A DNA stretch of 64,000 nucleotides. Source: Bacteroidales bacterium. GTDB lineage: Bacteria > Bacteroidota > Bacteroidia > Bacteroidales > UBA932. Under the pieces are notes generated by a model. That model did no database searches. It saw only the letters and a list, made by a program, of their open reading frames with translations, and had not been told where the DNA came from. Positions 11,056-59,198 of this stretch are shown here, piece by piece. Location of the stretch: NCBI GenBank assembly GCA_017454905.1, contig JAFTCB010000044.1:1-64000 (forward strand), read 5' to 3'. The position numbers and the translations under genes were made by a program. Positions within the stretch are counted from its first letter, which is position 1. Each line of letters begins with the position of its first letter.

Positions 11056-13395
11056 TCAGTTCTCCGCGGTTTCGCGGATCCGTACCGGGCCCAGCAGGCC
11101 CGAAGGCCGGAGCGGGGCGTGCTGGCTGAAGAACTTGAAACTCATCACCGCATGGCGGCCTTGCGAAGGACGGGGCTGGTTCTTCTCCAGCCATTCCGGC
11201 ACTTCCCGCATCATGCTGCCGATGACCGGACTGCCCGGGGCATAGGTATAGCGGAACGGCGCACCCCAGACGACATCGTCCGGTTCGAACTCATCGCCGA
11301 TCATCCGGTTGGCCCAGAGGTTCGTGACTTTGATCTCCAGTTCGTTGTCTCCTTCCCACAGCGCGTCCGTGATGTCCGCCACGAAAGGCGGACGCCAGAG
11401 CAGGCCGCAGGAACGGCCGTTGACCACGACTTCCGCCAGGTTGTGCACCTCGCCGAGATCCAGATACACCTTGTCGCCACGCACCGGCCGGGATGCCTGG
11501 AAGGTCTTGTGGTAGGCGGCCGTGCCGGAGAAATATTTCACGCCCGGCTCGGCGTGGTCCTTCCAGTCCGTCAGGCCATCCAGCGTGACCTGCGCCGGAG
11601 CGCCGCTGCCCTCGGGGAAGGTCAGCGTCCAGGCACCGTCCAGCGTCTGCCCGGAGGAAAGCGCCAGCGCGGAGCGGACCCCGCCGGGGTTCAGGGTGAC
11701 GGGCAGGCGTTTGTCGCCGTGCAGGACGACGAATTCCGACCCGCCGGGATCCAGGGCCAGGCCGTTCACGAAGGGCAGGTCCACCGTCACCGCCTCATCT
11801 GTCTTCTGATTGGAAACGAACCAGATATCGATATCACCGTCTCGCCGGTGGATCCAGAGCAGATCGCCTTCCACCTGGTTCTCCACGAACTCTCCCCGCT
11901 GCAGGAGCGCCTGGCACTGCGCGAAATAGCGGAAGAGCGCCTTGGCGCCGCCCGCCTTCCACCAGGTGCTGCCGGGCGTGAACTGCGTTCCCCATTTGCC
12001 GAAGGTCATGCCGGGTTCCGCCCAGGGCCAGGGATTGGCCGCCCCGGCATGGAGCATCAGGCGGTTGATGCCGACGCAGAACACCTTGTCCGCCACCACC
12101 TTGAGGCTGTATGGATCGTCCTCCCAGGCGTTGAGCGGCCAGCAGGTGAAGCCCTCGGCATAGACTTCCCGGCGGCCCAGTTTGTGGGCCAGCTCAGACA
12201 TCTTGTAGATGCTGCGTCCGCCCCAGTCGGCGGGGTTGGTCCAGAATTCGCCGCAGAGGAGGAAGTCCTCGTCCTGCGAGGCCACCTTTTCCGGATCGAG
12301 CGGCTCGCCGTATGGCTGGATGAGCAACCGCATGCCGGGCGTCTGCTTCACGAGTTCGGACATATAGGCGTAGTAGTTCTCCGCGAACAGGTCCTCGATC
12401 GTGGCCTGCCAGTCGGCAAGGAACTGTGCGCTGCGCTCCGCACTCTCCAGCGTCCGGCCGGCGAGCACGGGCAGCCACTGACGCAGGGGATAGCCGCGCC
12501 GGGCTTCGAATTCCTGCTCCATCAGCGGCGTCCAGCTCTGGCTCTTCTGCTCGTAACTGTCGATCTCGAAGTCCACCAGGGTCTTGCCCGCCAGGTCGCC
12601 GGCCAGTTCCAGGATCATGGACGGATACCCGTCGAAGAAGCGTTTCACGGCCTCGCGGCTCATCTTGTCACACTCCAGTCCGGCGCCGGAAGCGGGCGAG
12701 GTGCTGTCATCCCGCTTGTTCAGCGTGGTATAGCCGAAACGGTAAACGTCCCACTTTTTTCCCTGGGGATCCCAGTCCAGAGAGCCATCCTGCTTCATGG
12801 CAGTACTCAGGTCCACCATTCCGGTGCCGGACTCATCGCCGGCAGGCAGGACCAGCACGCAGATATCCCGGTAGAAGCCGAGGCGCTCCGCGGGCTGCGG
12901 CAGTTTCGCACTGCGCTGTCCGGCGCGCCACGGCGTCACGGTCCAGACCAGCTCCAGCATCGAGTACTCCGGCGTCACGTCCGGATAAGCACTCGAAGAC
13001 CAGCCCGGGCAGTTGTGCGTACCGAAGGTCAGGCCCAGACGGGCGCACTCCTGCATGGCGAAGCGCATCAGTTCTTTCCATTCCGGCGAGCCCACCGGAT
13101 GTTTCTCATAGGTGAAATCCGTCTGCGTGGGGCCTCCCACCTGGAAATTCTGCACGCCCGCGAGGCCGGCTTCGGCATAGGCCTCCAGGTCGTGGGTAAT
13201 CCCCTCCTTGCTGACCCAGCCGTCCATCCACTGCCAGATCATCACCGGCTTCGCCTCCTGGGGCGGATTCTCGAAAACTGCGATCAGGTCCTTCTCCGCG
13301 CGCGGCGTGCAGTCATTCAGCGTGACACACAAAACACTGAACATCAGGCTGGTTAGCATTTTTCGGGTGGTCAAAAACGGTACCCGTGTTTTCAT
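11056..13395 (-). CDS. Glycoside hydrolase family 106-like alpha-L-rhamnosidase, intact copy
   Basis: 779 residues from the ATG at 13395; in-frame ATGs at 13404 and 13416 are alternatives. The N-terminus has a lipoprotein-like signal ending LCVTLNDC. FENPPQEAKPVMIWQWMDGW followed by ITHDLEAYAEAGLAGVQNF is the typical opening of GH106 catalytic domains, which release terminal alpha-L-rhamnose from pectin or other glycans. The C-terminal beta-sandwich (about 640-760) includes ELEIKVTNLWANRMIGDE, also characteristic. It is shorter than many GH106 proteins. It lies 33 bases downstream of a 45-codon GH28 remnant. A second, broken copy of this gene lies at 26696-27500, and the two share long near-identical stretches at both ends. 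Confidence 0.82.
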   Translation of the reverse strand: MKTRVPFLTTRKMLTSLMFSVLCVTLNDCTPRAEKDLIAVFENPPQEAKPVMIWQWMDGWVSKEGITHDLEAYAEAGLAGVQNFQVGGPTQTDFTYEKHPVGSPEWKELMRFAMQECARLGLTFGTHNCPGWSSSAYPDVTPEYSMLELVWTVTPWRAGQRSAKLPQPAERLGFYRDICVLVLPAGDESGTGMVDLSTAMKQDGSLDWDPQGKKWDVYRFGYTTLNKRDDSTSPASGAGLECDKMSREAVKRFFDGYPSMILELAGDLAGKTLVDFEIDSYEQKSQSWTPLMEQEFEARRGYPLRQWLPVLAGRTLESAERSAQFLADWQATIEDLFAENYYAYMSELVKQTPGMRLLIQPYGEPLDPEKVASQDEDFLLCGEFWTNPADWGGRSIYKMSELAHKLGRREVYAEGFTCWPLNAWEDDPYSLKVVADKVFCVGINRLMLHAGAANPWPWAEPGMTFGKWGTQFTPGSTWWKAGGAKALFRYFAQCQALLQRGEFVENQVEGDLLWIHRRDGDIDIWFVSNQKTDEAVTVDLPFVNGLALDPGGSEFVVLHGDKRLPVTLNPGGVRSALALSSGQTLDGAWTLTFPEGSGAPAQVTLDGLTDWKDHAEPGVKYFSGTAAYHKTFQASRPVRGDKVYLDLGEVHNLAEVVVNGRSCGLLWRPPFVADITDALWEGDNELEIKVTNLWANRMIGDEFEPDDVVWGAPFRYTYAPGSPVIGSMMREVPEWLEKNQPRPSQGRHAVMSFKFFSQHAPLRPSGLLGPVRIRETAEN

Positions 13396-13428
13396 TTCTC
13401 CCATTATTTCAATCATTTACATGTCACA

Positions 13429-13566
13429 CTATTCTGCCGGCGGCAGCAGGTCTGCCGCCTCGAACTGTACGCCCTGGCAACCATTCAAGGAGATTCTGTT
13501 GTCCTGCGCGCGCACCACGGCAGTAAGGCCGACAGCCATCAGCAAGAGACAGAGATACTTTTTCAT
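13429..13566 (-). pseudogene. GH28 remnant: signal peptide joined to the last ~24 residues of a GH28 enzyme
   Basis: A 45-codon open frame. Residues 1-21 (MKKYLCLLLMAVGLTAVVRAQ) form a complete signal peptide. Residues 22-45 (DNRISLNGCQGVQFEAADLL and a short tail) align with the C-terminal end of the intact GH28 gene at 27497 (DNGMVLDGCSGVQFDNVKIL). The whole catalytic body is missing, which implies an in-frame deletion of about 1.3 kb. The position also matches: both lie immediately upstream of a GH106 gene on the minus strand. A -7 promoter box 20 bases upstream is retained, so a secreted peptide of about 24 residues could still be made, or the frame may serve only as leader for the GH106 gene. 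Confidence 0.75.
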
Positions 13567-13586
13567 CGGATTCTGGTTAATGTGAA

Positions 13587-13594
13587 CAAATATA
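13587..13594 (-). promoter_or_regulatory. -7 promoter box before the GH28 remnant and GH106 gene
   Basis: The minus strand reads TATATTTG, an exact TAnnTTTG match, 20 bases before the ATG at 13566. No clear -33 element is seen. It would transcribe the GH28 remnant and the intact GH106 gene together. Confidence 0.5.
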
Positions 13595-13627
13595 ATGAAT
13601 TTCCGCCGGGTTCCCGCGAAGAATTGT

Positions 13628-13635
13628 TATCTTCG
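13628..13635 (+). promoter_or_regulatory. Possible -7 promoter box for the outer-membrane barrel gene
   Basis: The plus strand reads TATCTTCG, one base from TAnnTTTG, about 95 bases before the ATG at 13730. It lies back-to-back with the minus-strand box at 13587. Support is weak because no -33 element was found. Confidence 0.3.
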
Positions 13636-13729
13636 CCCTCATCAACGGGAAGGAGATCCGCGAATAGTTTTTTCTTGCACTGTTCCAGGCAGTTTCCGGG
13701 ACGGACCGCGTTTTATTGAAAAAGACGTT

Positions 13730-14308
13730 ATGAAAAAATTCATCGCCGTTGCAGCTGTCTTGCTGCTAGCCTGTGCCATTGCTTCCGCACAGTTCCACAT
13801 CAGCCTGGGATATGCCCGTGCCTGGGATCTGGAGGTGATAGATACATCCTTAAACTCGTCCGGAGTCATTGCCGATTCAGAAAGGTACAACGGTTTCTCC
13901 GCAGGGGCCGGGTACTCCTTCAAACTCGCTGACGGGCTCTTTCTCACCCCAGGGGTGAACTATCTGCTCATCAGGGGGCGCAGGACCTGTATTCCAGAAG
14001 AACGGGTAAAGACCGAGCATTTTATCAATGTTCCCTTACATCTAAGCTACGACATCGCCTTCGCTCCAGGCGTCAAGTTCTTCGTGTTTGCCGGTCCGAC
14101 GGCTTCCATGCTTTTTTCTACCGGCAACCCTGAGTTTCGTAGACAAAAGAGTTTTGATATCCTGGCCGGCGGCGGTGCCGGCCTCAAGTTCGTTGACAAG
14201 TTCTGCCTCCGGGCAGGTTACGATTACGGGCTGTTCAACAGCAGCAACTATAACTTTTTCACCTTGCACCGGAGCCGGCTGAACATCAGTCTGGCCTACC
14301 TGTTTTAA
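13730..14308 (+). CDS. Small outer-membrane beta-barrel protein (porin-like)
   Basis: 192 residues from the ATG at 13730, chosen because it begins a clear signal peptide (MKKFIAVAAVLLLACAIASA); the open frame extends upstream to 13595 without signal-like character. The mature part alternates hydrophobic and polar residues (FHISLGYARAWDLEV, FLTPGVNYLLIRGRR, PLHLSYDIAFAPGVKFFVFA) and ends in LNISLAYLF, a terminal strand with a final phenylalanine as in outer-membrane barrels. Length and pattern fit an eight-stranded OmpA/OprF-like barrel of the OMP_b-brl type common in Bacteroidetes. It stands alone between the divergent GH106 unit and the kinase gene. Function unknown; codon use seems less GC-rich than its neighbours. 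Confidence 0.75.
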   Translation: MKKFIAVAAVLLLACAIASAQFHISLGYARAWDLEVIDTSLNSSGVIADSERYNGFSAGAGYSFKLADGLFLTPGVNYLLIRGRRTCIPEERVKTEHFINVPLHLSYDIAFAPGVKFFVFAGPTASMLFSTGNPEFRRQKSFDILAGGGAGLKFVDKFCLRAGYDYGLFNSSNYNFFTLHRSRLNISLAYLF

Positions 14309-14380
14309 GCCTTTCCTGAGAGGGATCACTGGTTCGTTTCGCGATTATTCACTATCTTGGCACAATAAAAACCTTGCGCC

Positions 14381-15316
14381 ATGTCATTTCCTCTTCAGAA
14401 CAGGACGGTCGCCGGCATCGGGGAAACGGTCCTGGATATCGTGTTCAGAAACAGCCAGCCGCAGGCGGCCGTGCCGGGCGGATCCGTTTTCAACGCCATG
14501 GTCTCGCTGGGCCGGACCGCCGGACGGGACTGCCCCGGCACACGCCTGGTGATGGCTTCCCAGACCGGCCGGGACGCCGTAGCGGACCTCATCCTGGACT
14601 TCATGCGGCAGAACGGCCTGGACAGCTCCTGCATCCAGCAGGATCCCGGGCAGAGCACGGTCTCGATGGCCCTGCTGGACGCGCAGAACAATGCCCGCTA
14701 TGAGTTTTTCCGCGACAGGGAACTGCCCCCGTTCCGCACGCCCCGGATCGCCTTCCGGGCGGAGGACATCCTGCTCTTCGGATCCTTTTTCGCCGTGAGC
14801 GGGGCCACCGGGCCGCAGACCCGCGAACTGGCCCGGGCGGCACGGGACGCCGGCGCCATCATCTACTACGACATCAATTTCCGGAAGAACCATCCTGCGG
14901 ATCCCCGCACGGTCGAGGAAAACATCGCCCTGTGCGACATCGTCCGCGGATCAGACGAGGACATCGAGAACCTCTGGGGCGACCCGGATCCCGCCCGGGT
15001 GTACCGGAAGCACATCGCCCCGCGCTGCCCCAACTACATCTGCACGAAAGGCGCGCTGCCGGCGGAAATCTTCTCACCGGGCGTACATGCCACCTTCCCG
15101 ACGGAGCCGGTCGCGCAGGTGCTCTCCACCATCGGTGCCGGCGACAACTTCAACGCCGGAATCGTCTACGGCATCCTCCGGCAAGGCTTCACCCGGGACA
15201 GGGTCCGGCAACTCTCCGAGGCCGACTGGAGCCGGCTCGTCCCTACAGCGATGCGCTTCTCTGCTGCCGTCTGCGGAAGCTTGCAGAACTACGTGGGACC
15301 GGACTTCCGGCCCTGA
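14381..15316 (+). CDS. PfkB-family carbohydrate kinase, intact copy
   Basis: 311 residues. It has the PfkB/ribokinase fold signatures: an N-terminal VPGGSVFNAMVSLGRTAG glycine-rich substrate segment, a central YYDINFRKNHP motif as in fructokinase-like members, and STIGAGDNFNAGIVYGIL with the catalytic base aspartate in GAGD. It phosphorylates a sugar or sugar acid using ATP in the cytoplasm. The setting among glycan-degrading genes suggests a released monosaccharide as substrate, but which one is not evident. A close paralogue lacking 38 residues lies at 25814-26623. It converges on the GH35 gene, with only six bases between the stops. A TATCTTGG sequence at 14353 could be a weak -7 box. Confidence 0.88.
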   Translation: MSFPLQNRTVAGIGETVLDIVFRNSQPQAAVPGGSVFNAMVSLGRTAGRDCPGTRLVMASQTGRDAVADLILDFMRQNGLDSSCIQQDPGQSTVSMALLDAQNNARYEFFRDRELPPFRTPRIAFRAEDILLFGSFFAVSGATGPQTRELARAARDAGAIIYYDINFRKNHPADPRTVEENIALCDIVRGSDEDIENLWGDPDPARVYRKHIAPRCPNYICTKGALPAEIFSPGVHATFPTEPVAQVLSTIGAGDNFNAGIVYGILRQGFTRDRVRQLSEADWSRLVPTAMRFSAAVCGSLQNYVGPDFRP

Positions 15317-15322
15317 CAGGGC

Positions 15323-17437
15323 CTATTTCGTGGCCCGGTGGATCAGCCGGACGCCGTGCAGGGCCAGCAGGGTGTCGCCGGGAGCGCCGTCCAGGACGGC
15401 GCGCTGCTCCGCCTGCAGATAGATGGGTGCGTCCTTGCGCAGCGGAAGGATCTGCAGTTGAGCCTGTTTTCCGGCCAGGTCGCTGACCCGGACGAGCATT
15501 TTGCGCCCGTTCCAGAAATTGTCCTCAACGAGGCGTCCGTCCGCGCAGACACGCGCCACGTCCCCGTCATAATCGATCTCCAGGAACCAGTCGTCAGGAT
15601 CGGTCACCTGCGGAACGGGAAGGTCCCATACCGCCGCGGCTTCGAAATCAGCCTCTGAAGGCTGTTCCGCCACGAATGCCTGTCCCATGCCGATCTCCCG
15701 GGCCGGACCTGCCTCGCGGACCTTTTCTGCCTGCAGGTCCTCCCCGGGCACCCAGCTCTCTTCGACGAGCCGCCGGCCGTCCCGGTAGAGGATACCCTCG
15801 CTGAAGCGGACCTTCCGTTCGGATACCTTGTAGGCCGTCAGCGCTTTCTGCGGGCTCATCACGACCACCTTGACACCTTTCACGCGGAAGGGCTTGTCCA
15901 GGCGCGGATGGTATTCCCTGCCATTGATTTTCAGGACGGGTTCGATCCCGTCGACAGCCACGAAATAAAGCGCGCGCCGCAATTTGCAGAAGGGCTGTGC
16001 CGTCGCCCAGTCGATATGCAAGCGCTTGAATTCCAGTCCGAAGGGGAAGCAGAAACTGGCCCCTTCCGGCACGGTCAGTTCCCGGCCACAAAAGTTCCAG
16101 GGCTGTGCGCCGAGTTCTGCCATCCGCTCGTAATTGTTGACGAACACAAAGCCCCTGTCTCCGCTGCGGCGCGTTGCGGTACGCAGCGGGCCTTCGCCGA
16201 ATTCCGGCTGCATCGGGGCCAGTTCCCCGCCCCAGTCGCGCAGCAGCTGGTGCAGCAGGCGGAGATGGTGATACGAGCGGTTGGGCTGTCCCATTTCGCC
16301 GAGCGGCGCCTGAAAGTCATAGGTCATGTGCGGAAGGTCGTTCCAGAAGGTGTACTTGGACGCCTGGAACTCCGCCATGGAATGCTCTGCGCACCAGGGG
16401 TTGGTGCCGCCGTGGTACATGTAGTAGCCGGGCAGGTTGCTGCCGGAGCCGACCTTGCAGATGGCCAGGGCCAGGGCATCCCGGTCGAAAATGTGGATCC
16501 GGCGGTGGTAGGAAGGCATCATCCCGCCGCCCAGTTCGCAGGTCAGGTAGGGATAGGCGCGGTCCGCCGCACTCATCTCCGTACTCTGGTCCGTGCCGAA
16601 CACCTCCGTAGCGATGACCGCTGACAGACGGCTGTCCTTGAAGCGGAACGCCGCCCGGTAATCACCCGGCATATCCGTCAGGACGCGGTCCCAGAAACCG
16701 TCAGCATAGTCACCGTAGAGCGGCAGGATCTCGCCGAAAACGGCCGGGCCCTGCATCTTCGGCCAGCCGGTGCGGGTATAGAACGGCACGTCCATCCCGG
16801 CAGCGATGATCGCTTGCTTGAGCGCGGCGAAATACGGCCAGGGACCGCTGCTCTCATTGTCCACCTGCACCCCGATCACCGGGCCCCCGTCCTTCCAGAG
16901 CAGGCCCTCCGCCTGTTTGCCGATGGCATCGTAGAAACGGGAAACGGCCGCGAGGAAGCCGGGAGCCGTGGTGCGGACCCGGTACTGCTCCGGGTCGGCA
17001 AGCGCCTTGTCCACCACCCACTCCGGGATGCCGCCGAGATACACTTCGCCGTGGCAGAAGGGGCCGACGCGCAGGACCACCTTCATGTGGCAGTCCCGGC
17101 AGACCTCCAGGAACTCCCGGAGATTGCGGTTGCCGCTCCAGTCCATCTGTCCTTCCTGCATCTCATGGTGTCCCCAGAAGATATAGCAGGCGGCGATATC
17201 GATGCCGCCGGCCTGCATCTTGAGGATTTCCCGCCGCCAGTCCCGCTCCGGGACGCGGCTGAAATGGATTTCTCCCATCACCGGGAGAACGTATTCTCCA
17301 TTCAGCAGGATGCCCGTGCCGTCCACATAGAGGGTCTGGCCGTCCGGAGTGACGGCGGTGCCGAATTTGAAAGGCTCGCCGGCGGATAGGAGGGTGGAGA
17401 GTGTCAACAAAAAGAGAAAGAGGATGCCGTGGCGCAT
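15323..17437 (-). CDS. GH35-type beta-galactosidase, secreted
   Basis: 704 residues with a signal peptide (MRHGILFLFLLTLSTLLSAG). The catalytic barrel shows LPVMGEIHFSRVPERDW, GGIDIAACYIFWGHHEM, VIGVQVDNESSGPW (acid/base glutamate after Asn) and YLTCELGGGMMPSYHRR (probable nucleophile glutamate), plus PGYYMYHGGTNPW, all in the order expected of GH35. The C-terminal third is beta-rich. Such enzymes release terminal beta-galactose from galactan or arabinogalactan-type chains in the periplasm or outside. It follows the DUF5107 gene after 84 bases and is probably the third gene of the permease operon. The acid/base motif is DNES rather than the common ENEY, a small deviation that keeps the glutamate. 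Confidence 0.85.
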   Translation of the reverse strand: MRHGILFLFLLTLSTLLSAGEPFKFGTAVTPDGQTLYVDGTGILLNGEYVLPVMGEIHFSRVPERDWRREILKMQAGGIDIAACYIFWGHHEMQEGQMDWSGNRNLREFLEVCRDCHMKVVLRVGPFCHGEVYLGGIPEWVVDKALADPEQYRVRTTAPGFLAAVSRFYDAIGKQAEGLLWKDGGPVIGVQVDNESSGPWPYFAALKQAIIAAGMDVPFYTRTGWPKMQGPAVFGEILPLYGDYADGFWDRVLTDMPGDYRAAFRFKDSRLSAVIATEVFGTDQSTEMSAADRAYPYLTCELGGGMMPSYHRRIHIFDRDALALAICKVGSGSNLPGYYMYHGGTNPWCAEHSMAEFQASKYTFWNDLPHMTYDFQAPLGEMGQPNRSYHHLRLLHQLLRDWGGELAPMQPEFGEGPLRTATRRSGDRGFVFVNNYERMAELGAQPWNFCGRELTVPEGASFCFPFGLEFKRLHIDWATAQPFCKLRRALYFVAVDGIEPVLKINGREYHPRLDKPFRVKGVKVVVMSPQKALTAYKVSERKVRFSEGILYRDGRRLVEESWVPGEDLQAEKVREAGPAREIGMGQAFVAEQPSEADFEAAAVWDLPVPQVTDPDDWFLEIDYDGDVARVCADGRLVEDNFWNGRKMLVRVSDLAGKQAQLQILPLRKDAPIYLQAEQRAVLDGAPGDTLLALHGVRLIHRATK

Positions 17438-17521
17438 AATTCTGTAGTTATCAATTTTTTACAAAAAACCGGACGGTCAAAATACATACCGGTGTTTTTT
17501 TGTTGGTAATTCATTTTCAAA

Positions 17522-20500
17522 TCATTGCAAGTCACGCAGTCCCGCCTCTCCCAGGCGGGTCATCAGGTCGCAGTGCGCGATATTGCGGAGGGTCAGGTCT
17601 TCGTCCCAGATGGCGAGGTCGGGCAGGGAGACGGCGAAGTAGTCCATCACCACCTCGTCGCCGCGGTGCTCCCGGCCGTAGTCCAGCAGCATCCGGAACT
17701 TGTCCTCCGCTTCGGCTTTCCGGCCGAGCGCGGCAAGGGCGAGGCCCTGGTAGTAGATCTTCTCGGGCTTGGCGTCGTTGTAGTAGAGCGCAGGGACGGG
17801 TTTGAGATCGCCTTTTGCGGCCAGCTCCCAGCATTCCTGTGCGCGGGCCGCATCACCGGCGCCCTGCCAGGCGCAGCCCAGCCAGTAGTAGAAGTCCTGC
17901 TCCTGGGCGCCCTGGAGTTTGCCTTCGCCCAGATGGTGCGGATAGACGAGGCACGCTTCCAGCAGGGAGACAGCCTCCTGCCAGCGGCCCGCGGCCATCG
18001 CCTGCTTCGCCATTTCGACGCGGCAGCGCTGGTACTGTGCCGGGACCTTGCCTTCGCCGCCTTCCCAGGGGTGGAAGCGGTGGGCGTCCAGTTTTTCTTT
18101 CGCCTCGGCAAAGCGGCCGAGGTCGTTCAGGAGCGTGATCTCTTCGAGGACGAGGTCATCGCGGCTTTCCACCTGTGCCCGGTGGGACTGCAGGCGGTCG
18201 AGGCGTTCTTGTGCCGGGTGGCCGAGCTTCTTGTGGAGCTGGTCGAGTTCCATCAGGATGCGGGCGTCGGTCTCGTCGAGGGCCCAGGCGCGCTCCATGG
18301 CCGCGAGGGCGCCGGGGGCGTCGTGGCGTTTGTTGTAGCGGACGAGGGCGAGGCAGCGCCAGGCGGCCGGGAAGTCCGGGTCGGCGGCAACGGCTTGCTC
18401 CCAGCATTGTTCTGCGAGGTCGTATTGGCGTTTGTCGTACCAGAGGTTGCCGAGGAGCCAGGGTGCCCGCGCGTCATCTTCCCGGGCCGCGGAGAGTACT
18501 TCGATTGCCTCCAGTCGATTCGGGAAACAGGGTCCGGCAACGCCGGACGTCTGGCGAGGCTGGCTGCCGCGGAGCGGAGTGGCGGAGCAATAATATTTCC
18601 AATAATAAAGCGACATCTCAGAGAGCGCATCACGCTCTGAGCCGAAGCCCCAGAGGGCATCCGCCTCATCACAGAGGCCGGCGGCGCAGAAATCGAGCGC
18701 GATCTCGTCGTAGTTCTCGCTCTCGCCGCGCATCAGCAAAGTGAACGCCTCCCGGTCGCCGGCACCGAGCAGCAGCTCTACCCAGCGGCAGCCGTAGTTG
18801 AACTTATCCAGCGCGAGCGACTCCGCACACAGCGCAAGCGCCTCGTCCGCACGTCCCAGCCGCCGCAGCACGGCAGCCTTCAGCGCACGGGCCTGGTGGT
18901 GGTGCCAGTTGCGCGCCAGCGCATGGTCCAACTGGTCCAGGGCATCGTCCAGGCGGCCCTGCGCCACGCTGATCTGCGCACAGGCGAAATATCCGGCATC
19001 CTGCCAGGCAGCATTCCAGGTGGCCTTATAGAACCAGTCATAAGCCTCATCCAGACGGCCCTGCCTGCGCAGGCAAAGGCCCAGGTTGTAGAGCGGCTCG
19101 CCATCGTACGGATTGGGATTGCGCCGCTGCAGGACCTTCACCGCCGTGCAGAAATACGGTTCCGCAAGTGCAAAACGCCCGCGCCGCAGATACCACAGGC
19201 CCAGGGCATTGTTGTTGCGCACATCGAGTGGATCGCGCCGCAGCGCCTCCTCATAATAATCCTTCGCGCTCCAGGTGGCATGGCGGTACTGCTCCAGATG
19301 CAGTCCCGTCAGGTACAGCTGCTCGCAGGTGGCGATCTCCGAAGGCTTCAGCGCCGCCTCCGCGGGCGGCGGGACCGGGCGGTCCGCCGGTTCGGCATGC
19401 CAGCGCAGCCGTCCCACGCGCAGGTCCAGCTGGTCGAACGGGACGTCTCCCACCGGGACCCGTTCGTCGAAGACGCGCTCCGGGCCGAGCTCCAGTTCCC
19501 GCTCATACAGGGTCTTGCCCCCGTCGCTGCACAACAGCACATGCACCTGCTGCTTCGAGGTCGCGAACAGGCGCAGCCGCACCTGACCGGCCCCCGCCGG
19601 ATCGATATTGAGCACCAGGTCCTTGCTGGCATTCTTCACGACACCCAGCTCCCGGTACGGGAAGAAATACTGCACGAAGGACTTCTCCTCATAGGGCATC
19701 AGCCAGCTGAAATCCGGCTGGTTCTCCGTATAGACGCCCGCCATCAGCTCGATGTACGGACCGTCCTCGTCGGTCAGGTTGCGGTCCCAGGCCCGGCCGA
19801 AGTCGCCGTTTCCCCAGGTCCACTGCTTCTTGCCCGGGGAGAAACGGTGGTCCGCCACGTGCAGCATGCCGCACTGCGTGTCATTCTCGTAGCCGCCCTC
19901 GAAGTCATACTCCGAAGCGGCGACCATATAGGAGGTCGGGACCTTGATGTTCTTGTAGTTGGAAATGTCCACCCCCGCGGAATAGTCCATCTTGTAATAG
20001 ACGCCCGTCGCAATCGGGAAGGTACTGACGGCGCGCTTGCCGTGGTCGAACACGGCGTTGACGTCCGGCGGGAAGACGCTCTGGTAGGCGTCGTTCACCT
20101 TGACGGCCGGATTGGCCCACCAAAGGAAGGTCTGCGGGACCTCGGTGCGGTTGTACAGTACGCCGCGGATCTCCAGGTACGCACAGCCCGGGCGCAGGGT
20201 GAAACCGGCCATGCCCTTCTGGTGGAACATCCGCTCCATCTCGCTGCACCACACGGTGACGCTCCCGTCGGTATGCTCTTCGATGGTGCAGTCCACCGGC
20301 ATGAAGGTGCTCGGACGGTGGTGCTGCGGCCAGTTGAACTCGATGCCGCCGCTGATCCAGGGGCCCGCCAGGCCCACGAGGGCCGGCTTGATGACCTGGT
20401 TGTAATAGATAAAGTGCCGTCCGGCGATCTTGTCATACGCCATCTGCACGCGTCCGCCCAGTTCCGGCAGGATCATCACCTTGATGTACTCATTCTCCAA

Positions 20501-22050: not shown

Positions 22051-22066
22051 AATCCGGATATTTGTG

Positions 22067-22074
22067 CAAAGGTA
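22067..22074 (-). promoter_or_regulatory. -7 promoter box for the MFS-DUF5107-GH35 operon
   Basis: The minus strand reads TACCTTTG, an exact TAnnTTTG match, 16 bases before the ATG at 22050. The position -33 is weak, as expected for a promoter needing an activator. The divergent AraC-type gene is the obvious candidate. Confidence 0.6.
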
Positions 22075-22131
22075 CACGGAATCCTCGCCGGAAAGAATAG
22101 AAAATGTAAATAAAAAGATGGACAAAATTGT

Positions 22132-22139
22132 TATATTTG
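22132..22139 (+). promoter_or_regulatory. -7 promoter box for the AraC-type regulator gene
   Basis: The plus strand reads TATATTTG, 21 bases before the ATG at 22161, in the A/T-rich stretch shared with the divergent permease promoter. No strong -33 element is seen. Confidence 0.5.
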
Positions 22140-22160
22140 CACAGACCAGACCAACACAAC

Positions 22161-23045
22161 ATGCTCAAGCTTAAAGACGGATTCAAGGGGAGCCGGATGA
22201 TCGTCCTGCCGCCGCCGGTCGTGGAAGCGCTTGCGCGCGACCCCTTCACGTCCCGGCTCTACCTGACCGACATCGGCCATTTTCCGCATGCGGAGCACCA
22301 CTTCCGCCAGCGCCCGGAAGGCGCCGACGCCTGGATCCTGCTCTACTGCACGGATGGGCAGGGCTGGATCGAGTACCGCGGGACCCGGCACACCCTCGGG
22401 CCCGGACAGTCGTTCATCATCCCGGCCGGGGCTCCCCACACCTACGGGGCCGACGAGGACCGGCCCTGGTCGCTCTACTGGGTCCATTTCAAAGGAGAAC
22501 TGGCACCCTATTTCGCCGAAGGCTGCGACCGGGTCTGCTCCATGGCCGACCCGGACCACGACCGCATCACGGGCCGCACCACCCTCTTCGAGGAGCTCTA
22601 CCTGGCCGTCGAGACCGGTTTCGGCGACGCCCAGTTGCGCTACGCCTGCGCCACGCTCTACCATTTCCTCGGGACCTTCCGCTACCTGCAGGCGGGCTTT
22701 ACGCCCCGCCAGGACGGCCGCTCGCTCGGCATCATCGAGCGCTGCCGGAGCTATATTCTGGAGCACATTGAGCAGCGCATCACGCTGGGCGACCTGTGCC
22801 GCTTCACCGGCTTCTCCCCGGCCCGCTGCAACACTCTTTTCAAGCAGCACACCGGCATGACCCCGGTCGCCTACCTGCAGGAACTCCGCATCCAGACAGC
22901 GATGCAGCTCTTCGACACTACCGGCCTCCACATCAACCAGGTCTGCCACAAGGTCGGCATCGAAGATCCCTACTACTTCTCCCGCCTCTTCCGCAAGCGC
23001 ACGGGCTATTCCCCCTCCGCCTGGCGGCGGCAGGGGAAGAAATAG
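22161..23045 (+). CDS. AraC-family transcriptional regulator
   Basis: 294 residues. The N-terminal half is a cupin-like sugar-sensing domain (GQGWIEYRGTRHTLGPGQSF, then IPAGAPHTYGADEDRPW). The C-terminal 100 residues contain the two helix-turn-helix motifs of the AraC/XylS family (LGDLCRFTGFSPARCNTLFK and INQVCHKVGIEDPYYFSRLF) with the closing KRTGYSPSAWR. It lies divergent from the MFS-DUF5107-GH35 operon with a 110-base shared control region and upstream of the GH43-GH28 gene, so it probably activates both in response to a released sugar. The inducer is not known. The start at 22161 is preferred over 22128 because the -7 box lies between them. Confidence 0.92.
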   Translation: MLKLKDGFKGSRMIVLPPPVVEALARDPFTSRLYLTDIGHFPHAEHHFRQRPEGADAWILLYCTDGQGWIEYRGTRHTLGPGQSFIIPAGAPHTYGADEDRPWSLYWVHFKGELAPYFAEGCDRVCSMADPDHDRITGRTTLFEELYLAVETGFGDAQLRYACATLYHFLGTFRYLQAGFTPRQDGRSLGIIERCRSYILEHIEQRITLGDLCRFTGFSPARCNTLFKQHTGMTPVAYLQELRIQTAMQLFDTTGLHINQVCHKVGIEDPYYFSRLFRKRTGYSPSAWRRQGKK

Positions 23046-23076
23046 GGTTTTGTCCATCATTATTTTGAAATCTTCC

Positions 23077-23108
23077 ATTGTATCCGGGAAGGAGCCTTGG
23101 TATCTTTG
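23077..23108 (+). promoter_or_regulatory. Promoter for the GH43-GH28 fusion gene
   Basis: The plus strand reads ATTG at 23077-23080, then 20 bases, then TATCTTTG at 23101-23108. This fits TTTG-N19/20-TAnnTTTG with one mismatch in the -33 element. It lies after the AraC stop and 24 bases before the ATG at 23133. Confidence 0.6.
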
Positions 23109-23132
23109 CAACCGTAACCAAATCTCCGGGCC

Positions 23133-25748
23133 ATGAAGAAAACCCTTTTCCTTTTCTCCCTTCTGCTTATCTGCACCGCAGCCCCGGCGCAAACCCGCCA
23201 GCACTACGACAGCATCAAGCCCGGCCAGGTCTGGCTGGACACCTCCGGCAAGCCCATCCAGGCCCACGGATTCCAGATTTTCGAGCAGGACGGTACCTAT
23301 TACTGGTACGGCGAGAACAAGGAGCACACCCTCCCGGGGACCAATGTCTGGACCTGGGGCATCCGCGCCTACAAGTCCACAGACTTCTACAACTGGGAAG
23401 ACCTGGGCCTGATCATCCCGCCCGACGAGGAGAATCCCCTCTCCCCGCTGCACTATTCCCAGTCGCTCGACCGGCCCCATATCCTCTACTGCAGCAATAC
23501 CGGCAAGTGGGTCTGCTGGATCAAAAGCATGGCCACCGACGGCTATTTCGTGGTCCTGCAGGCAGACCGCTTCGAGGGCCCCTATACCCTGATCCGATCC
23601 TTCAAGCCCGAGGGTTTCGGCGTGGGGGATTTCGATATGTATGTGGATCCGGACACCGGTCATGGATACGTGTGGTTCGAACGTCCACACTGGGAGATGA
23701 TCTGCGCGGAACTGACCGACGATTTCCTCGGCACGAACGGCACCTTCTCCGAGCATTTCGTCGGGCTGCGCCCTCCCTATACGCGTGAGGCTCCCGCGCA
23801 TTTCGTGCGCGACGGCAAGCACTACATGTTCACCAGCGGTACTTCCGGCTATACACCCAACCCTTCGAAGGTGGCCGTATTTACGGATTACCATGGGGAA
23901 TACACGGATCTGGGCTGCCCGCATATCGACGATGCATGGCAGGATTCCTTCTGCTCACAGATCTCCGGTGTAGTCAAGATCCCCGGACGGGACCTTTATA
24001 TCGCCCTGGCGGACCGGTGGCTTCCGCATATTGCCGGCACGGATGTCGCGATGCGCACCTGGAAGAGCTATGAGACCCGCTATGTGAACCACCAGCCCAA
24101 TGAAAGGGATTTCTCGGAACCGCAGGTCCGGGACAAGTCCGGCAGTCGCCGCGGTGGATCTGATACCACCGTCGGCTCCACCTATGTCTTCCTGCCCGTC
24201 ACGTTCGACGCCGACGGCAAGCCCACGCTCGTCTGGCAGGACGAGTGGCGTCTGGAGGACTATCAGATCCCGACCCGCCTGGAAGTAGGCCCCGCCGTAA
24301 TGCCTGCGGAGATTGAGCCCATCGAGGCGCCCTTCCCGATGCCGCAGCTGGGCCGCCCGGAGATTCCCGCCCGGCAGGTCACGGTCAAGATGAAGAAGAA
24401 AGGGATGTCCACCGGCGCCATCCAGAAAGCGATCGACCAGCTGGCCGCGCAGGGCGGCGGCACGGTCGTGATTCCCGCCGGAGTCTGGCAGACCGGTCGG
24501 ATCGAGCTGCGCAGCCACATCAACCTGCACCTCGCAGCAGGGGCGGAACTGCACTTCAGCGGCGAGATCAAGGATTATCTGCCCGTCGTCTTCACGCGCG
24601 ACGAGGGCATCGAGATTTATTCCCTCGGCGCTTTTATCTATGCCTGCGACGCAGAGGATATTGCCGTGACGGGCAAGGGCCGCATCGTCGGTCCGTCCAC
24701 GGAGTGTGAAATCTATCGCAACAACGCCGAAAAGGCCCAGAACATCGAGGTCATCACCCACAACGGCGAGATGCCGCTGTCGGAGCGCATCTTCGACGGG
24801 GTGCACAACAGCGGCGAGGTGTTCCTGCCCAAGACCATTGCGCCCATTCGTTGCAAGAATGTCCTCATCGAGGGCGTGACCCTGGATGCCGGCCTCTACT
24901 GGAACGTGGTCCCGCAGTATTGCGAGAACGTGGTCATCCGCGGCGTCACCGTGCGCTCCCACGGCCATGGCCGCACCGACGGCGTGGACGTCGAGTCCTC
25001 CCGCAACGTACTTGTGGAATACTGTTCCCTGGACTGCCAGGACGACAACTATACCTTGAAATCCGGCCGCGGGGTGGATGGCGTGCGTGTCGGCATCCCT
25101 ACGGAAAACGTCGTGATCCGCAAGAGCCTGGCACTGCGCGGTGGGGGCGGGATCGTATTCGGCACGGAAGTCGCCGGCGGTATCCGCAACGTCTATATGC
25201 ACGACTGTGTCTTCGACGGCACCGGCCAGGGCTTCCGTTTCAAGACCCTGCGCCCGCGCGGGGGCGGCGTGGAGAACGTTACGGTGGAGCGCATCCGCGC
25301 CAACATTACAGGCAACGCCCTGCTCTGCGACCAGCTGAACAGCGTGAAATGGGCGGGCGACCTGGCCTACCGCTACGCCGTACCGGGCAAGGAATCCGCC
25401 ACGGCGGTGGAGATCGCCACACTGAAGGGGCCCTACACCCCGGACTTCCACACGGTCTCTATCAGCGATGTACTCATCGAGCACTGCGACCGCTTCCTGA
25501 ACTTCGTCTGCACCCCGGAACTGCCCTTCCGCGACGTCCTGTTCCGCAATGTAAAAGCTAAGGCCAACCATTTCGGCTCCCTGCGCGACGCCCGCAGCCT
25601 CGTTCTGGAGAGCGTGGACCTCAATACCCCGGACCCTGAGCTGAGGGTCGATGGCAGCGAGGGGATCTTCCTACTGGATGTCTCGGTCAATGGCGAAGCG
25701 CCCGTAATCCGGCAGACCGGTGTGCCGTCCTCGGTCGTGATTCGCTGA
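23133..25748 (+). CDS. Secreted bifunctional GH43-GH28 fusion enzyme
   Basis: 871 residues with a signal peptide (MKKTLFLFSLLLICTAAPAQ). Residues about 25-380 are a GH43 five-bladed propeller (IQAHGFQIFEQDGTYYWYGE, GVGDFDMYVDPDTG), most like the exo-beta-1,3-galactanase-type subfamilies. Residues about 383-415 are a linker (VGPAVMPAEIEPIEAPFPMP), and residues about 416-870 are a GH28 right-handed beta-helix (GGGTVVIPAGVWQTGRIEL, CQDDNYTLKSGRG, GFRFKT). GH43 would trim galactose or arabinose side chains, GH28 a galacturonan-containing backbone. The GH28 part deviates from the family at NTD (here RTD) and at the GHG histidine (here glycine). The separate GH28 protein at 27497-28954 carries the same linker sequence right after its signal peptide. 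Confidence 0.85.
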   Translation: MKKTLFLFSLLLICTAAPAQTRQHYDSIKPGQVWLDTSGKPIQAHGFQIFEQDGTYYWYGENKEHTLPGTNVWTWGIRAYKSTDFYNWEDLGLIIPPDEENPLSPLHYSQSLDRPHILYCSNTGKWVCWIKSMATDGYFVVLQADRFEGPYTLIRSFKPEGFGVGDFDMYVDPDTGHGYVWFERPHWEMICAELTDDFLGTNGTFSEHFVGLRPPYTREAPAHFVRDGKHYMFTSGTSGYTPNPSKVAVFTDYHGEYTDLGCPHIDDAWQDSFCSQISGVVKIPGRDLYIALADRWLPHIAGTDVAMRTWKSYETRYVNHQPNERDFSEPQVRDKSGSRRGGSDTTVGSTYVFLPVTFDADGKPTLVWQDEWRLEDYQIPTRLEVGPAVMPAEIEPIEAPFPMPQLGRPEIPARQVTVKMKKKGMSTGAIQKAIDQLAAQGGGTVVIPAGVWQTGRIELRSHINLHLAAGAELHFSGEIKDYLPVVFTRDEGIEIYSLGAFIYACDAEDIAVTGKGRIVGPSTECEIYRNNAEKAQNIEVITHNGEMPLSERIFDGVHNSGEVFLPKTIAPIRCKNVLIEGVTLDAGLYWNVVPQYCENVVIRGVTVRSHGHGRTDGVDVESSRNVLVEYCSLDCQDDNYTLKSGRGVDGVRVGIPTENVVIRKSLALRGGGGIVFGTEVAGGIRNVYMHDCVFDGTGQGFRFKTLRPRGGGVENVTVERIRANITGNALLCDQLNSVKWAGDLAYRYAVPGKESATAVEIATLKGPYTPDFHTVSISDVLIEHCDRFLNFVCTPELPFRDVLFRNVKAKANHFGSLRDARSLVLESVDLNTPDPELRVDGSEGIFLLDVSVNGEAPVIRQTGVPSSVVIR

Positions 25749-25813
25749 CGCAGCAGATCATCATCATTCTTCCCGATTATTTGCTAACTTGCCGGGAGAA
25801 TAACAATCGCGCT

Positions 25814-26623
25814 ATGCAGAACAGGACCATCGTCGGCATCGGGGAGACGGTGCTGGACATCGTTTTCAGGAACAACCAGCCGCAGGCGGCCGTGCCCGGC
25901 GGATCTGTCTTCAACGCCATGGTTTCGCTGGGCCGCACGGCCGGGCGGCTCATCCCGGGCACCCGGCTGATGATGGCTTCCCCGGCCGGCGACGACGCCG
26001 TGGCCGGCATCATCACGGATTTCATGCGGGAGAACCATCTGGACACCTCCTTGATTCAGCAGGACCCCGGCCAGACGACCATTTCGGTCGCCATGCTCAA
26101 CGACGGAGGCAATGCCCGCTATGAATTCTACCGCGACAAGGGGCTGCCCGCCTTCCGCACGCCGCAGATCCGCTTCCAGCCGGAAGACCTGATGCTTTTC
26201 GGTTCTTTCTTCGCCGTGAGCGAAGCCACGGGACGGCAGACCCGGGAGCTCGTGCAGGCCGCTCGGGAAGCCGGGGCCCTGTACGGCTGCGCCGACCCCG
26301 CCCGGGTGTACCGCGAACACATCGCAGCGTGCTGCCCCCGTTTCATCTGCACCCGGGGCGCGCAGCCCACGGAGGTATTCTCCCCTGGACTGCACCGCTC
26401 CTTCCCCGCTCCGGAGGTAGAACGGATCGCCTCAACGATCGGAGCCGGGGACAGTTTCAACGCCGGTTTCCTCTTCGGACTCTTGCGCCACGGCTTCATG
26501 CGCGAACGCCTGCAGGCGATCACCGAAGCCGACTGGGAGCGGCTCGTGCCCACAGCCATGCGCTTCTCGGCCGATGTCTGCGCGAGCCTGCAGAACTATG
26601 TCCGTCCGGACTTTCAGCCCTGA
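25814..26623 (+). CDS. PfkB-family kinase paralogue with a 38-residue internal deletion, probably inactive
   Basis: 269 residues from the ATG at 25814. It is closely similar throughout to the kinase at 14381-15316 (same VPGGSVFNAMVSLGRTAGR and STIGAGDSFNAG segments, catalytic GAGD kept). Between AREAGAL and DPARVYREH, however, it has five residues where the intact copy has 43, a net loss of 38 residues in frame. The missing part includes the YYDINFRKNHP motif and the adjoining strand and helix, so correct folding is doubtful. The frame is otherwise clean, which suggests a recent event or a retained non-kinase role. A perfect hairpin terminator follows. It may be annotated as a pseudogene. Confidence 0.8.
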   Translation: MQNRTIVGIGETVLDIVFRNNQPQAAVPGGSVFNAMVSLGRTAGRLIPGTRLMMASPAGDDAVAGIITDFMRENHLDTSLIQQDPGQTTISVAMLNDGGNARYEFYRDKGLPAFRTPQIRFQPEDLMLFGSFFAVSEATGRQTRELVQAAREAGALYGCADPARVYREHIAACCPRFICTRGAQPTEVFSPGLHRSFPAPEVERIASTIGAGDSFNAGFLFGLLRHGFMRERLQAITEADWERLVPTAMRFSADVCASLQNYVRPDFQP

Positions 26624-26640
26624 CGCTGATTCTCTGGCAA

Positions 26641-26684
26641 TTACAAATTAACCTTCGGAAAAACATCCGAAGGTTAATTTGTAA
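26641..26684. terminator. Bidirectional hairpin terminator
   Basis: A perfect 18-base-pair stem: arm TTACAAATTAACCTTCGG at 26641-26658, an eight-base loop, and its complement at 26667-26684. It sits between the convergent kinase copy and GH106 pseudogene. Its tip (CCTTCGG/CCGAAGG) is shared with the hairpin at 34031-34072 while the lower stem differs. Confidence 0.75.
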
Positions 26685-26695
26685 ACTATTGATAA

Positions 26696-27500
26696 TCAAT
26701 AGCCGGTAGTCAGGGAAACAGGACCCAGCAGGCCCGAGGGGTGGAGCGGGGCATCCTTGCTGAAGAATTTGTAGCTCACGACGGCATGGCGGCCCTGCGA
26801 AGGGCGGAGCTGGTTCTTCTCCATCCACTCCGGGATCTCCTTCATCGTGCTGCCAATGATCGGGTTGCCCGGGGCATAGCTGTACCGGGAAGGCTCTCCC
26901 CAGACCACGTCGTCCGGCTCGAACTCGTCGCCGACCATCCGGTTGACCCAGAGGTTCGTCACCCGGATCTCCAGTTCGTTCTCCCCGTCACGGAGTGCGT
27001 CTGTCACGTCCACGGAGAAGGGCGCATGCCAGAGGATACCGCACGGGTGGCCGTTGAGCACTACCTCCGCCATATTCTGCACCGCGCCGAGGTCCAGCCA
27101 CACGCGGCTTCCGTCCCGGGGCTGCTCCCAGGTAAAGTGCTTATGATAAACCGCCGTCCTGGAGAAATACCGCACGCCGGGCGCATTCCTGCATGGCGAA
27201 GCGCATCAGCTCCTGCCATTCGGGGGAACCGATCGTGCAGCCCTCCCGCACAAAATCCGTCTGGGCGGGGCCGCCCACCTGGAAGTTCTGCACCCCGCCG
27301 AGCCCGGCAGCCGCGAAGGCCTCCAGGTCATGGGTGATCCCTTCCTTGGTGACCCAACCGTCCATCCACTGCCAGATGATTACGGGCTTTGCCTCTTGAG
27401 GCGGATTGGCAAAAGCCTGCTGCAATTCTGTCTCAACACGCGGCGTACAAGCCGCCAGCATCAGGGCACAAGCCCAAATCCATCGCCTGTTTCCCTTTAT
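26696..27500 (-). pseudogene. Broken GH106 gene (about 1.5 kb internal deletion and frameshift)
   Basis: Two pieces in different frames. The N-terminal piece (27500 down to about 27181) has a lipobox LMLAAC, then ANPPQEAKPVIIWQWMDGW and on to AMQECA, matching the start of the intact GH106 at 11056-13395. The C-terminal piece (about 27180 down to 26696) resumes at PGVRYFSRTAVYHKHF and runs to PLHPSGLLGPV, matching the end of the intact copy. Everything between is gone. The join near 27177-27183 falls in GCGCCCGG, where both parental sites share a few bases, so a deletion by short homology is likely. The expected start codon reads ATA (27500-27498); ATG overlapping the GH28 stop would be natural, suggesting a further point change. 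Confidence 0.85.
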
Positions 27501-28954
27501 TCTGTCGTCAGGATTTTCACGTTATCAAACTGCACGCCGCTGCATCCGTCCAGGACCATCCCGTTATCCTTCACCCGGACCACGGCATCGCGCATCGAGA
27601 AACCCGACACGTCCTGCAGGCGGATCAGCGCACCGCAATCGGCTTCCAGGCCCTCGATCCGCACGTTCGCGAACGGGCGCTCCGGCAGGCCGCCGAAAGA
27701 GACCAGCTGCCCGCAGTCCTCCACCCGGATATCCCGGAAGGTGAAATCGCGGAACTCCGGGGTCAGGGGCGTGATCTCGCGGGCCGGATAGCGGTCCGCC
27801 AGTTCGCCGACCCATTTGCTCGAACCGAGCATGTTGCTGGAGAAAGCCGCATTGCGCGCGCCCCGGATCCAGATCCGCTCGGCCGTCAGGCGGCAGCCTC
27901 CGCCGCCACGCGGGCGACGTGTCTTGAAGAAGAAACCCTGGTCCGTGCCGTCGAAGATGCAGTCGTGGACATAGACATCGGAGATCCCGGCGGCCGTCTC
28001 GGTGCCGAACACCACGCCGCCGACTCCGCGCAGGGACTCACAATACCGGACCACCACCCGCTCCGTGGGCGCGGCGGCACGCAGGCCGTCCCAGCCGCGG
28101 CCGGACTTGAAGGTGTAGCAGTCGTCGCCGCAGTCCAGCGAACAGTATTCGATCAGGGCGTCCGTCGTGGACTCGATGTCGATCCCGTCCGTGCGGCCGT
28201 GGCCGTGCGAGCGCACAGTGACACCGCGGATGGTCACGTTGCGGCAGAACTGCGGGACGATGTTCCAGAAGATGCTGCGCTCCAGGGTCAGGCCCTCGAT
28301 CAGGATGCCGCTGCTGCGCGACAGCGCAATGAACATCGGCATCAGCACCGGACGCCCGTCCAGGCCGTCGCAGATGCGTTTCTCGATGGGATCGTCCAGG
28401 CTTACGCAGTCCTCCGTGCTCAGCGAATTCTGCGCTTCGGTATAGAGTTCACAGTCCAGGTCCGGGCCGACCAGGCGGCCCCGGCCGGTGATGCCGATGT
28501 TCTCAGCCCCGTCGGCGTAGATCATCCCGCCCGGAGCCATCAGTTCGATGCCCTCGATACGGGTGCGAACGGCGGGCTGGTAGTCCTTGATGTCACCGCT
28601 GAAATGCAGTTCCGCGCCCTCCTCCAGGTGCAGGCAGACGCCCGACTTGAGGATGATGCGCCCGGTGGTCCAGACCCCGGCCGGGATCACGACCACCCCG
28701 CCCCCGCGGGCGGACATCCGGTCGATAGACGTCTGGATGGGCCGGGTCGAGAGGCCCTTGCGGGCCATCTTCACGACCGCGCGGCGGGCGGCGAACTGCG
28801 GAGCGGCGATGCCGCTCACATCGAAGGGCGCCGTGATGGGCGCGATCTGCGCCGGCATCGCCGCGGGACCCACTTTCGAGCGGTCCACGGGCTCTACGGC
28901 CGCGAGGGTCTGGGTCAGCTGCGCGAGCAGCAGCGTCAGCAATATCTTTTTCAT
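27497..28954 (-). CDS. Secreted GH28 family pectinase-type enzyme
   Basis: 485 residues with a signal peptide (MKKILLTLLLAQLTQTLAAV). After a linker (VGPAAMPAQIAPITAPF) comes a right-handed beta-helix of family GH28, which cleaves alpha-1,4-linked galacturonic acid in pectin: GGGVVVIPAGVWTTGRIIL, HGRTDGIDIESTT, CGDDCYTFKSGRG, GVVFGTETAAG. Catalytic aspartates in TDG and DDC are kept. The family histidine of GHG is valine (GVGG), and the arginine of the RxK motif is phenylalanine (GFFFKT), so activity or specificity may be altered. It lies between the GH2 gene (12 bases upstream) and the GH106 pseudogene on one minus-strand unit. It is the closest relative of the GH28 half of the 23133-25748 fusion. 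Confidence 0.85.
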   Translation of the reverse strand: MKKILLTLLLAQLTQTLAAVEPVDRSKVGPAAMPAQIAPITAPFDVSGIAAPQFAARRAVVKMARKGLSTRPIQTSIDRMSARGGGVVVIPAGVWTTGRIILKSGVCLHLEEGAELHFSGDIKDYQPAVRTRIEGIELMAPGGMIYADGAENIGITGRGRLVGPDLDCELYTEAQNSLSTEDCVSLDDPIEKRICDGLDGRPVLMPMFIALSRSSGILIEGLTLERSIFWNIVPQFCRNVTIRGVTVRSHGHGRTDGIDIESTTDALIEYCSLDCGDDCYTFKSGRGWDGLRAAAPTERVVVRYCESLRGVGGVVFGTETAAGISDVYVHDCIFDGTDQGFFFKTRRPRGGGGCRLTAERIWIRGARNAAFSSNMLGSSKWVGELADRYPAREITPLTPEFRDFTFRDIRVEDCGQLVSFGGLPERPFANVRIEGLEADCGALIRLQDVSGFSMRDAVVRVKDNGMVLDGCSGVQFDNVKILTTE

Positions 28955-28966
28955 TCCCTGCTCCGA

Positions 28967-31033: not shown

Positions 31034-31042
31034 AATTTCCTA

Positions 31043-31050
31043 CAAAATTA
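31043..31050 (-). promoter_or_regulatory. -7 promoter box for the GH2-GH28 operon
   Basis: The minus strand reads TAATTTTG, matching TAnnTTTG, nine bases before the GH2 start at 31033. No -33 element is convincing. Confidence 0.45.
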
Positions 31051-31103
31051 ATTTTTTTTCAACAATAATTGTACCTTGGTTTATTATCTATAATACGTTT
31101 CCA

Positions 31104-31355
31104 ATGAGACCTACCCTCTTTCCTCTCCTGCTGACCCTGCTGCTGCCCGTAGCCGCCCATGCCCAACAATAAGAAGTCTTTCCCGACGGAAAGCACATTT
31201 CTGCCTGGTTCTCCGAAAGCGGCAAAGTAGACATCTCCACCCTCGGGAAGCAGTATGTCGTGACACGCTATGGCGTGAGGCGCAACGCATTTGTTTTTAA
31301 CGCATTCCAAAAAGATACTCCAGGCATAAATACTCCCCTATATAATAGTATTTAA
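31104..31355 (+). pseudogene. GH28 N-terminal fragment with a stop after the signal peptide
   Basis: An ATG at 31104 begins a clean signal peptide (MRPTLFPLLLTLLLPVAAHA) that ends in QQ and a TAA at 31170-31172. The same frame then continues with EVFPDGKHISAWFSESGKVD and ISTLGKQYVVTRYGVRR, the characteristic N-terminus of a Bacteroidetes GH28/rhamnogalacturonase-type protein. After about 37 residues the similarity ends and an unrelated A/T-rich tail runs to a stop at 31355. The rest of the gene is absent. It lies divergent from the GH2 gene and fills most of the 425-base gap between GH2 and the DUF389 gene; the remainder of that gap holds only promoters and a short AGCGGC-TT-GCCGCT hairpin near 31361-31374. 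Confidence 0.7.
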
Positions 31356-33980: not shown

Positions 33981-34030
33981 CCTGCTTGCAAGAACATCCG
34001 GTTTTTGGTCAGTATTGAGTATCAGCCATT

Positions 34031-34072
34031 TATGAAACAACCTTCGGAGAAAACTCCGAAGGTTGTTTCATA
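34031..34072. terminator. Bidirectional hairpin terminator
   Basis: A perfect 19-base-pair stem: arm TATGAAACAACCTTCGGAG at 34031-34049, loop AAAA, and its exact complement at 34054-34072. It lies between the convergent aldo/keto reductase and ppdK genes. It shares the CCTTCGG tip with the hairpin at 26641-26684. Confidence 0.8.
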
Positions 34073-34091
34073 AATAGTTGATTGTCAATCC

Positions 34092-59195: not shown

Positions 59196-59198
59196 GTT

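Follow-up and report, generated by a model that had tools for sequence, protein, structure and literature searches.

Why does one carbohydrate region of a Bacteroidales genome hold, at two places, a GH28 gene followed directly by a GH106 gene on the minus strand, with only one of the two enzymes intact at each? The preliminary description read this as a duplication inside the island followed by subfunction sorting. Here, the whole stretch analysed, termed the window, comprises bases 1–64000 of the 78,712-bp contig C21, which belongs to a 2.42-Mb MAG in 62 contigs with a completeness of 81.7%. Its features are collected in Table 1, where the suffix 1 denotes the first place (site 1) and the suffix 2 a cassette shared with the genome G250. 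Every genome compared is a MAG, and the genus sample consisted of 400 genomes, the own genome included, taken from a larger group. In this sample, a relative of GH28_2 was found in at least 8 genomes (E 1e-70 or better, at most three candidates scored per genome), of GH106_1 in at least 15 (E 1e-75 or better, at most two candidates scored) and of the kinase in 81 (E 1e-60 or better), indicating a fairly common kinase and a rare GH28-GH106 pair. Among the results of our literature search, no title concerned this locus.

Table 1. Features of the two GH28-GH106 sites and their neighbours (window positions).
Feature	Position	Strand	Basis or remark
GH106_1, intact alpha-L-rhamnosidase-family gene, 786 aa	11056..13416	-	Pfam PF17132, E 8e-102
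45-codon ORF	13429..13566	-	promoter/start at position of the G118 SGNH-hydrolase gene; last ~26 codons, GH28 end
Outer-membrane beta-barrel gene	13730..14308	+	706 bp here missing from G118
PfkB kinase 1, intact	14381..15316	+	Pfam
Cassette common to window and G250	23178..31286		three matches, 95–98% identity
GH43-GH28 fusion gene, first cassette gene	23133..25748	+	leader and promoter like those of another gene
PfkB kinase 2	25781..26623	+	114 bp deleted in frame; each edge has GGCC
GH106_2, 3' fragment	26696..27175	-	Pfam C-terminal GH2-type sugar-binding domains
GH106_2, 5' fragment	27141..27461	-	Pfam GH106 N-terminus, E 2e-17
GH28_2, intact, 485 aa	27497..28954	-	Pfam GH28, E 2e-9
GH2 gene, first in the GH2-GH28_2-GH106_2 run	28967..31033	-	Pfam
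Third GH28-like gene, 5' fragment	31104..31286	+	in-frame stop; 3' part lost

Pfam matches and open reading frames bear out the coordinates, strands and intact or broken states originally given for both loci. GH106_1 and GH28_2 each score above the Pfam cut-off and belong to their families by Pfam match; their action on rhamnosides and galacturonan is predicted. GH106_1 is of the usual size, since the open GH106 frames of G118, G204, G250 and G258 measure 774–832 aa. An internal truncation, suspected from GH106-like frames of 987–1204 aa elsewhere in the genome, was rejected because close relatives are similarly long. The dN/dS values of GH106_1 are 0.14 and 0.19, and the intact GH106_1, GH28_2 and kinase 1 span 0.09–0.19; the broken pieces gave 0.16 and 0.33 with few changes, so that relaxation is not clear. 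The proposal that one working copy of each enzyme is left holds within the subfamily. More widely it does not, as five contigs of the own genome (C14, C31, C42, C60 and C62) carry other GH106 relatives, 28–39% identical, and the neighbouring GH43-GH28 gene also contains a GH28 domain by Pfam.

In the cassette, GH43-GH28 and kinase 2 point rightwards and are followed by GH106_2, GH28_2 and GH2, all pointing leftwards. The reported absence of about 1.5 kb from its GH106 was confirmed: relative to G250, 1499 bp are missing (remainder 2 on division by three), the frame is shifted and CCCGGC stands at both edges. The same break was seen against G204 (1499 bp) and against G118 and G258 (1493 bp each). 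An undivided pair, which it had been suggested to look for in relatives, is present on contig C44 of G250 (GH28 at 59349–60803, GH106 at 57061–59316; 95–98% DNA identity to the window). As the two genes are whole and adjacent there, the loss of GH106_2 in the window is derived, by deletion. Kinase 2 is also whole in G250, beyond the GH28-GH106 pair, and both kinase 2 and GH106_2 are whole in G204; the 114-bp break was seen against G204 and G014 as well. The stretch removed corresponds to YYDINFR to ENLWG of the intact kinase 1, which we take to hold a central motif conserved among PfkB kinases; judging from its sequence, kinase 2 has therefore probably lost its activity.

Further losses border these genes. 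The third GH28-like gene is whole in G250, and G204 has at this position a 24-codon ORF whose tail resembles that gene by eye. Between the AraC gene and the cassette, the window lacks ~5.1 kb present in G204, or ~8.0 kb present in G250. The promoter and leader of the window GH43-GH28 gene resemble those of a different gene in G204. Self-comparison of the window also revealed self-complementary stretches at 34011–34092 (82 bp) and 26641–26684 (44 bp).

The GH28 of site 1 had been described as cut to 45 codons. This stands for the last ~26 codons of the ORF: the GH28 identity comes from the C-terminal part, and the first codons may be of other origin. In that part, 14 of 26 residues are identical to the end of GH28_2. 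When the ORF was scored against 715 ORF tails, the GH28_2 tail (window and G250) reached 73, the GH28 of G118 51 and the next 30, and none of 20,000 shuffles reached 73. A search with the ORF gave E 7e-4 in the own genome and in G250, all other matches in 18 genomes lying at 0.13 or above. The head resembles a signal peptide by eye, and 77 bp covering its promoter and start match, at 93.5% identity, the promoter and start of a G118 SGNH-hydrolase gene (Pfam Lipase_GDSL_lke), which lies there between the kinase and polysaccharide deacetylase genes; the likeness then fades. Since promoter and start stand at the position of the SGNH-hydrolase gene, GH28_1 was perhaps never whole at site 1. Moreover, no whole GH28 preceding GH106_1 was found in any relative examined, so that the site-1 GH28 may have arrived already cut. 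TAnnTTTG, a Bacteroidetes promoter element, has matches upstream of both the 45-codon ORF and the GH2 gene; separate promoters for the two loci, as proposed, are plausible as far as these motif matches go.

The relationship of the copies was examined in a GH106 tree of 13 rows, in which GH106_2 fills 32% of the columns. GH106_2 is sister to the G250 gene (100/99) within a group formed by G204, G118, G258 and G250 (100/100). GH106_1 falls outside this group and is nearest by path to G035, the fork between these two not being settled by the tree. Forcing GH106_1 and GH106_2 together costs 174.6 log units (p-AU 4e-10), which rejects a sister relation; the middle of GH106_1 is mostly 83–90% identical to the cassette type, so that conversion may blur this tree. 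The synonymous divergence between GH106_1 and GH106_2 is comparable to that from another species. For GH106_1, dS is 0.77 against the G250 gene and 0.85 against that of G035. Between window and G250, four cassette pieces (GH28_2, GH43-GH28, GH2 and the C-part of GH106_2) gave dS values of 0.08–0.23 and kinase 2 gave 0.014, and the short N-part of GH106_2 shows no change.

The identity to G250 is uneven along the window. The three cassette matches (23.2–31.3 kb) are 95–98% identical and the adjoining ones 83–87%. Per kb, identity amounts to 96–100% at 23–30 kb and 88% at 30–31 kb; in the flanks it is 80–90% at 17–22 kb and 78–93% at 31–36 kb, with 91–93% at 34–36 kb, outside the cassette. Since the cassette is closer to G250 than its flanks are, a recent exchange between species is the likeliest cause; the left flank is 94–95% identical to G204 at 20–22 kb, which makes the identity contrast weak there.

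These results bear on whether, as originally proposed, the GH28-GH106 pair was duplicated locally and then lost in a complementary manner, which would explain why GH28 precedes GH106 at both sites, on the minus strand and separated by a short spacer, and why each enzyme is retained once. A recent local duplication is ruled out by the GH106 tree and dS. Gene orders also differ, with GH106-GH28 tail-OMP-kinase at site 1 and kinase-GH106-GH28-GH2 in the cassette rather than collinear blocks, and the kinases differ in place and lineage. Moreover, the GH106 genes of G035, nearest to GH106_1 by path, and of the more distant L075, L077 and L079 sit elsewhere, and no GH28_2-like gene was found in the stretches examined from these four. 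Local duplication of any age is thus very unlikely. The reciprocity of the GH28/GH106 loss has little weight, because one loss per pair gives a reciprocal outcome half the time. Subfunction sorting is not applicable, because whole genes died: of each gene, one copy has been disrupted by a deletion or survives as a mere tail.

In G035, L075 and L077, GH106 is followed by a GH115-like gene (by eye). GH106 and GH115-like sequence are separate genes in L077; in G035 (C29:28036–32544; L011, L073) GH106 continues in frame into the GH115-like sequence as one open frame (by eye). In L075 (9989–12301), an in-frame stop divides GH106 into two ORFs, 216 and 531 aa long.

Reciprocal loss between species was found for the kinase, in one gene and two genomes: kinase 2 is broken in the window and kinase 1 in G204, where 368 bp are missing, out of frame, and kinase 2 is whole. 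In the kinase tree, kinase 2 groups with the G250 and G204 kinase 2 (100/100), and kinase 1 with G118 and the G204 kinase-1 fragment (82/92, weak). The single kinase match of G250 at E 1e-60 or better is the cassette kinase. GH28_2 and GH2 are missing from the G204 region, and a GH28_2 relative was found in G204 only within the GH43-GH28 fusion (three of nine candidates scored); retention of one of each is thus no rule. G224 has two complete related kinases (C77:1484–2413 and C53:10229–11158), each adjoining a gene of DUF389 type; this may reflect duplication of a flank or an edge of the assembly.

The breaks, the whole versions seen in relatives, the separate placement of the copies in the trees and the uneven identity lead us to the view that xenologous redundancy was probably resolved here by deletions, the dying copy differing by gene and by species. 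A variable carbohydrate region between conserved genes would have held two xenologous versions of overlapping functions. In one version, kinase 1 would be the older at this place, GH106_1 and the GH28 tail having come from another lineage into the slot ahead of the deacetylase gene. The second version would be the cassette from GH43-GH28 to GH2, recently exchanged between species. We infer this order of events and direction of transfer. With both versions present, internal deletion would have removed one version of each redundant gene, namely kinase 2 and GH106_2 in the cassette and, if GH28_1 was once whole, the GH28 at site 1. Such deletions may have arisen by illegitimate recombination at short shared stretches (CCCGGC and GGCC; 6 and 4 bp). 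The choice of the dying version would be an accident, by the look of the opposite kinase outcome in G204. With its two distantly related versions of a carbohydrate gene set, the region would be a fairly ordinary example of tidy redundancy trimming.

At site 1, GH106_1 and the GH28 tail alone may have been inserted into the SGNH-hydrolase slot, the GH28 never having been whole there. The gene order of G118 and the shared promoter and start favour such a capture, which we hold to be a real possibility, if short of probable. However, the signal-peptide-like head shares its reading frame with the GH28 tail, which is what an internal deletion would produce, and L079 holds a similar head-tail remnant of another gene. 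Capture is compatible with resolved xenologous redundancy except for GH28_1, and only GH106_2 and kinase 2 would then have decayed here. Assembly error or strain mixture could also produce breaks in a MAG with the contig number and completeness given above. However, the deletion edges share only 4–6 bp, shorter than assembler words (for IDBA-UD, e.g., 90 and up according to PMC8199421, which may not be the source of this MAG); similar breaks occur in independent genomes, and no whole second GH106_2 or kinase 2 was found in the own genome. Collapse during assembly is therefore unlikely, and we give error or mixture very little credence as the origin of these breaks.

How upstream genes are lost in such arrays may be glimpsed elsewhere. 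We tentatively suggest, as an idea still more doubtful than probable, that in arrays of secreted glycosidases the stretches coding for signal peptide and lipobox serve as short homologies at which whole upstream genes are cut out, the next enzyme gaining a new promoter and leader, and that genes within operons lose their interior in frame, which keeps the following genes expressed. The cases behind this suggestion are L166/L163, the window GH43-GH28 leader, a GH115-like remnant in L079 and a GH28-like remnant in G204 (by eye). Between G125 and G153 (L166:14904–16460 against L163:14977–17932), 1399 bp are missing between two 9-bp TGGCCGCCT repeats, which lie in leader codons. The deletion leaves in L166 an open fused gene, the downstream gene with the leader of the upstream one; both stretches are 99% identical there, and L164 also has the longer form. 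In L079 (12299–12526), a GH115-like gene between GH106 and the next gene is cut to an in-frame head of ~51 codons and a tail of 25 codons. A leader scan yielded 48 pairs, of which the window GH43-GH28 and L166 rows were inspected; much of the remainder seems to consist of rearrangements or of matches between paralogs.

A break census of 56 sequences (1.08 Mb, 633 ORF queries) returned nine clusters. Five were kept, namely G176 (contig edge), G204 kinase 1, L079, L168 (weak) and window GH106_2; the four dropped were shadow-ORF queries (two in G204, one in L163) and a split transporter in L181. The census missed the 45-codon ORF, the 24-codon ORF of G204 and the kinase-2 deletion. Eight breaks were judged by eye, two of them noticed as open ORFs. 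Among non-terminal genes, four breaks are in frame (45-codon ORF, G204 24-codon ORF, L079 and G176) and one is not (L168); among terminal genes, one is in frame (kinase 2) and two are not (GH106_2 and G204 kinase 1). The idea of a rule by which genes are gutted in frame to spare those downstream was dropped, the hypergeometric value calculated by hand (16/56) not being significant.

The locus shows, for several genes at once, how overlapping carbohydrate genes may be trimmed in gut Bacteroidales once cassettes have moved between species, since a given gene can be whole in one relative, cut in another and cut in the opposite copy in a third. A further lesson is that fragments can enter the family counts of a locus. 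Should excision by leader swap prove general, it would help to explain why promoters and gene content turn over rapidly in loci of this type. Follow-up is worthwhile for the opposite kinase losses and for the leader-swap deletions; the GH28/GH106 pattern by itself would arise from random loss in half of all cases.

The clustered GH106, GH28, GH43, GH2 and GH35 genes, AraC-type regulator and sugar transporter recall a polysaccharide utilization locus. A canonical SusC/SusD locus has neighbouring SusC and SusD genes; the 29 window stretches scanned with Pfam gave no SusD family, and a TonB-receptor plug match only at 1063–3711. Reciprocal gene loss, or divergent resolution, is a known concept for duplicates from genome doubling; here, too, species retain different copies of a redundant kinase, but these copies are xenologous and belong to a carbohydrate region of a bacterium. 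In xenologous gene displacement, a newly arrived version exists beside another until one of them is lost. The present locus likewise has an incoming version beside another, followed by loss of one, but here each version has lost some of its genes and kept others. Finally, in reductive evolution, as PMC3040653 describes it, paralogs are lost and families kept. Paralogs go while families stay here as well, in one island of a gut MAG rather than in the extremely reduced genomes of intracellular bacteria.
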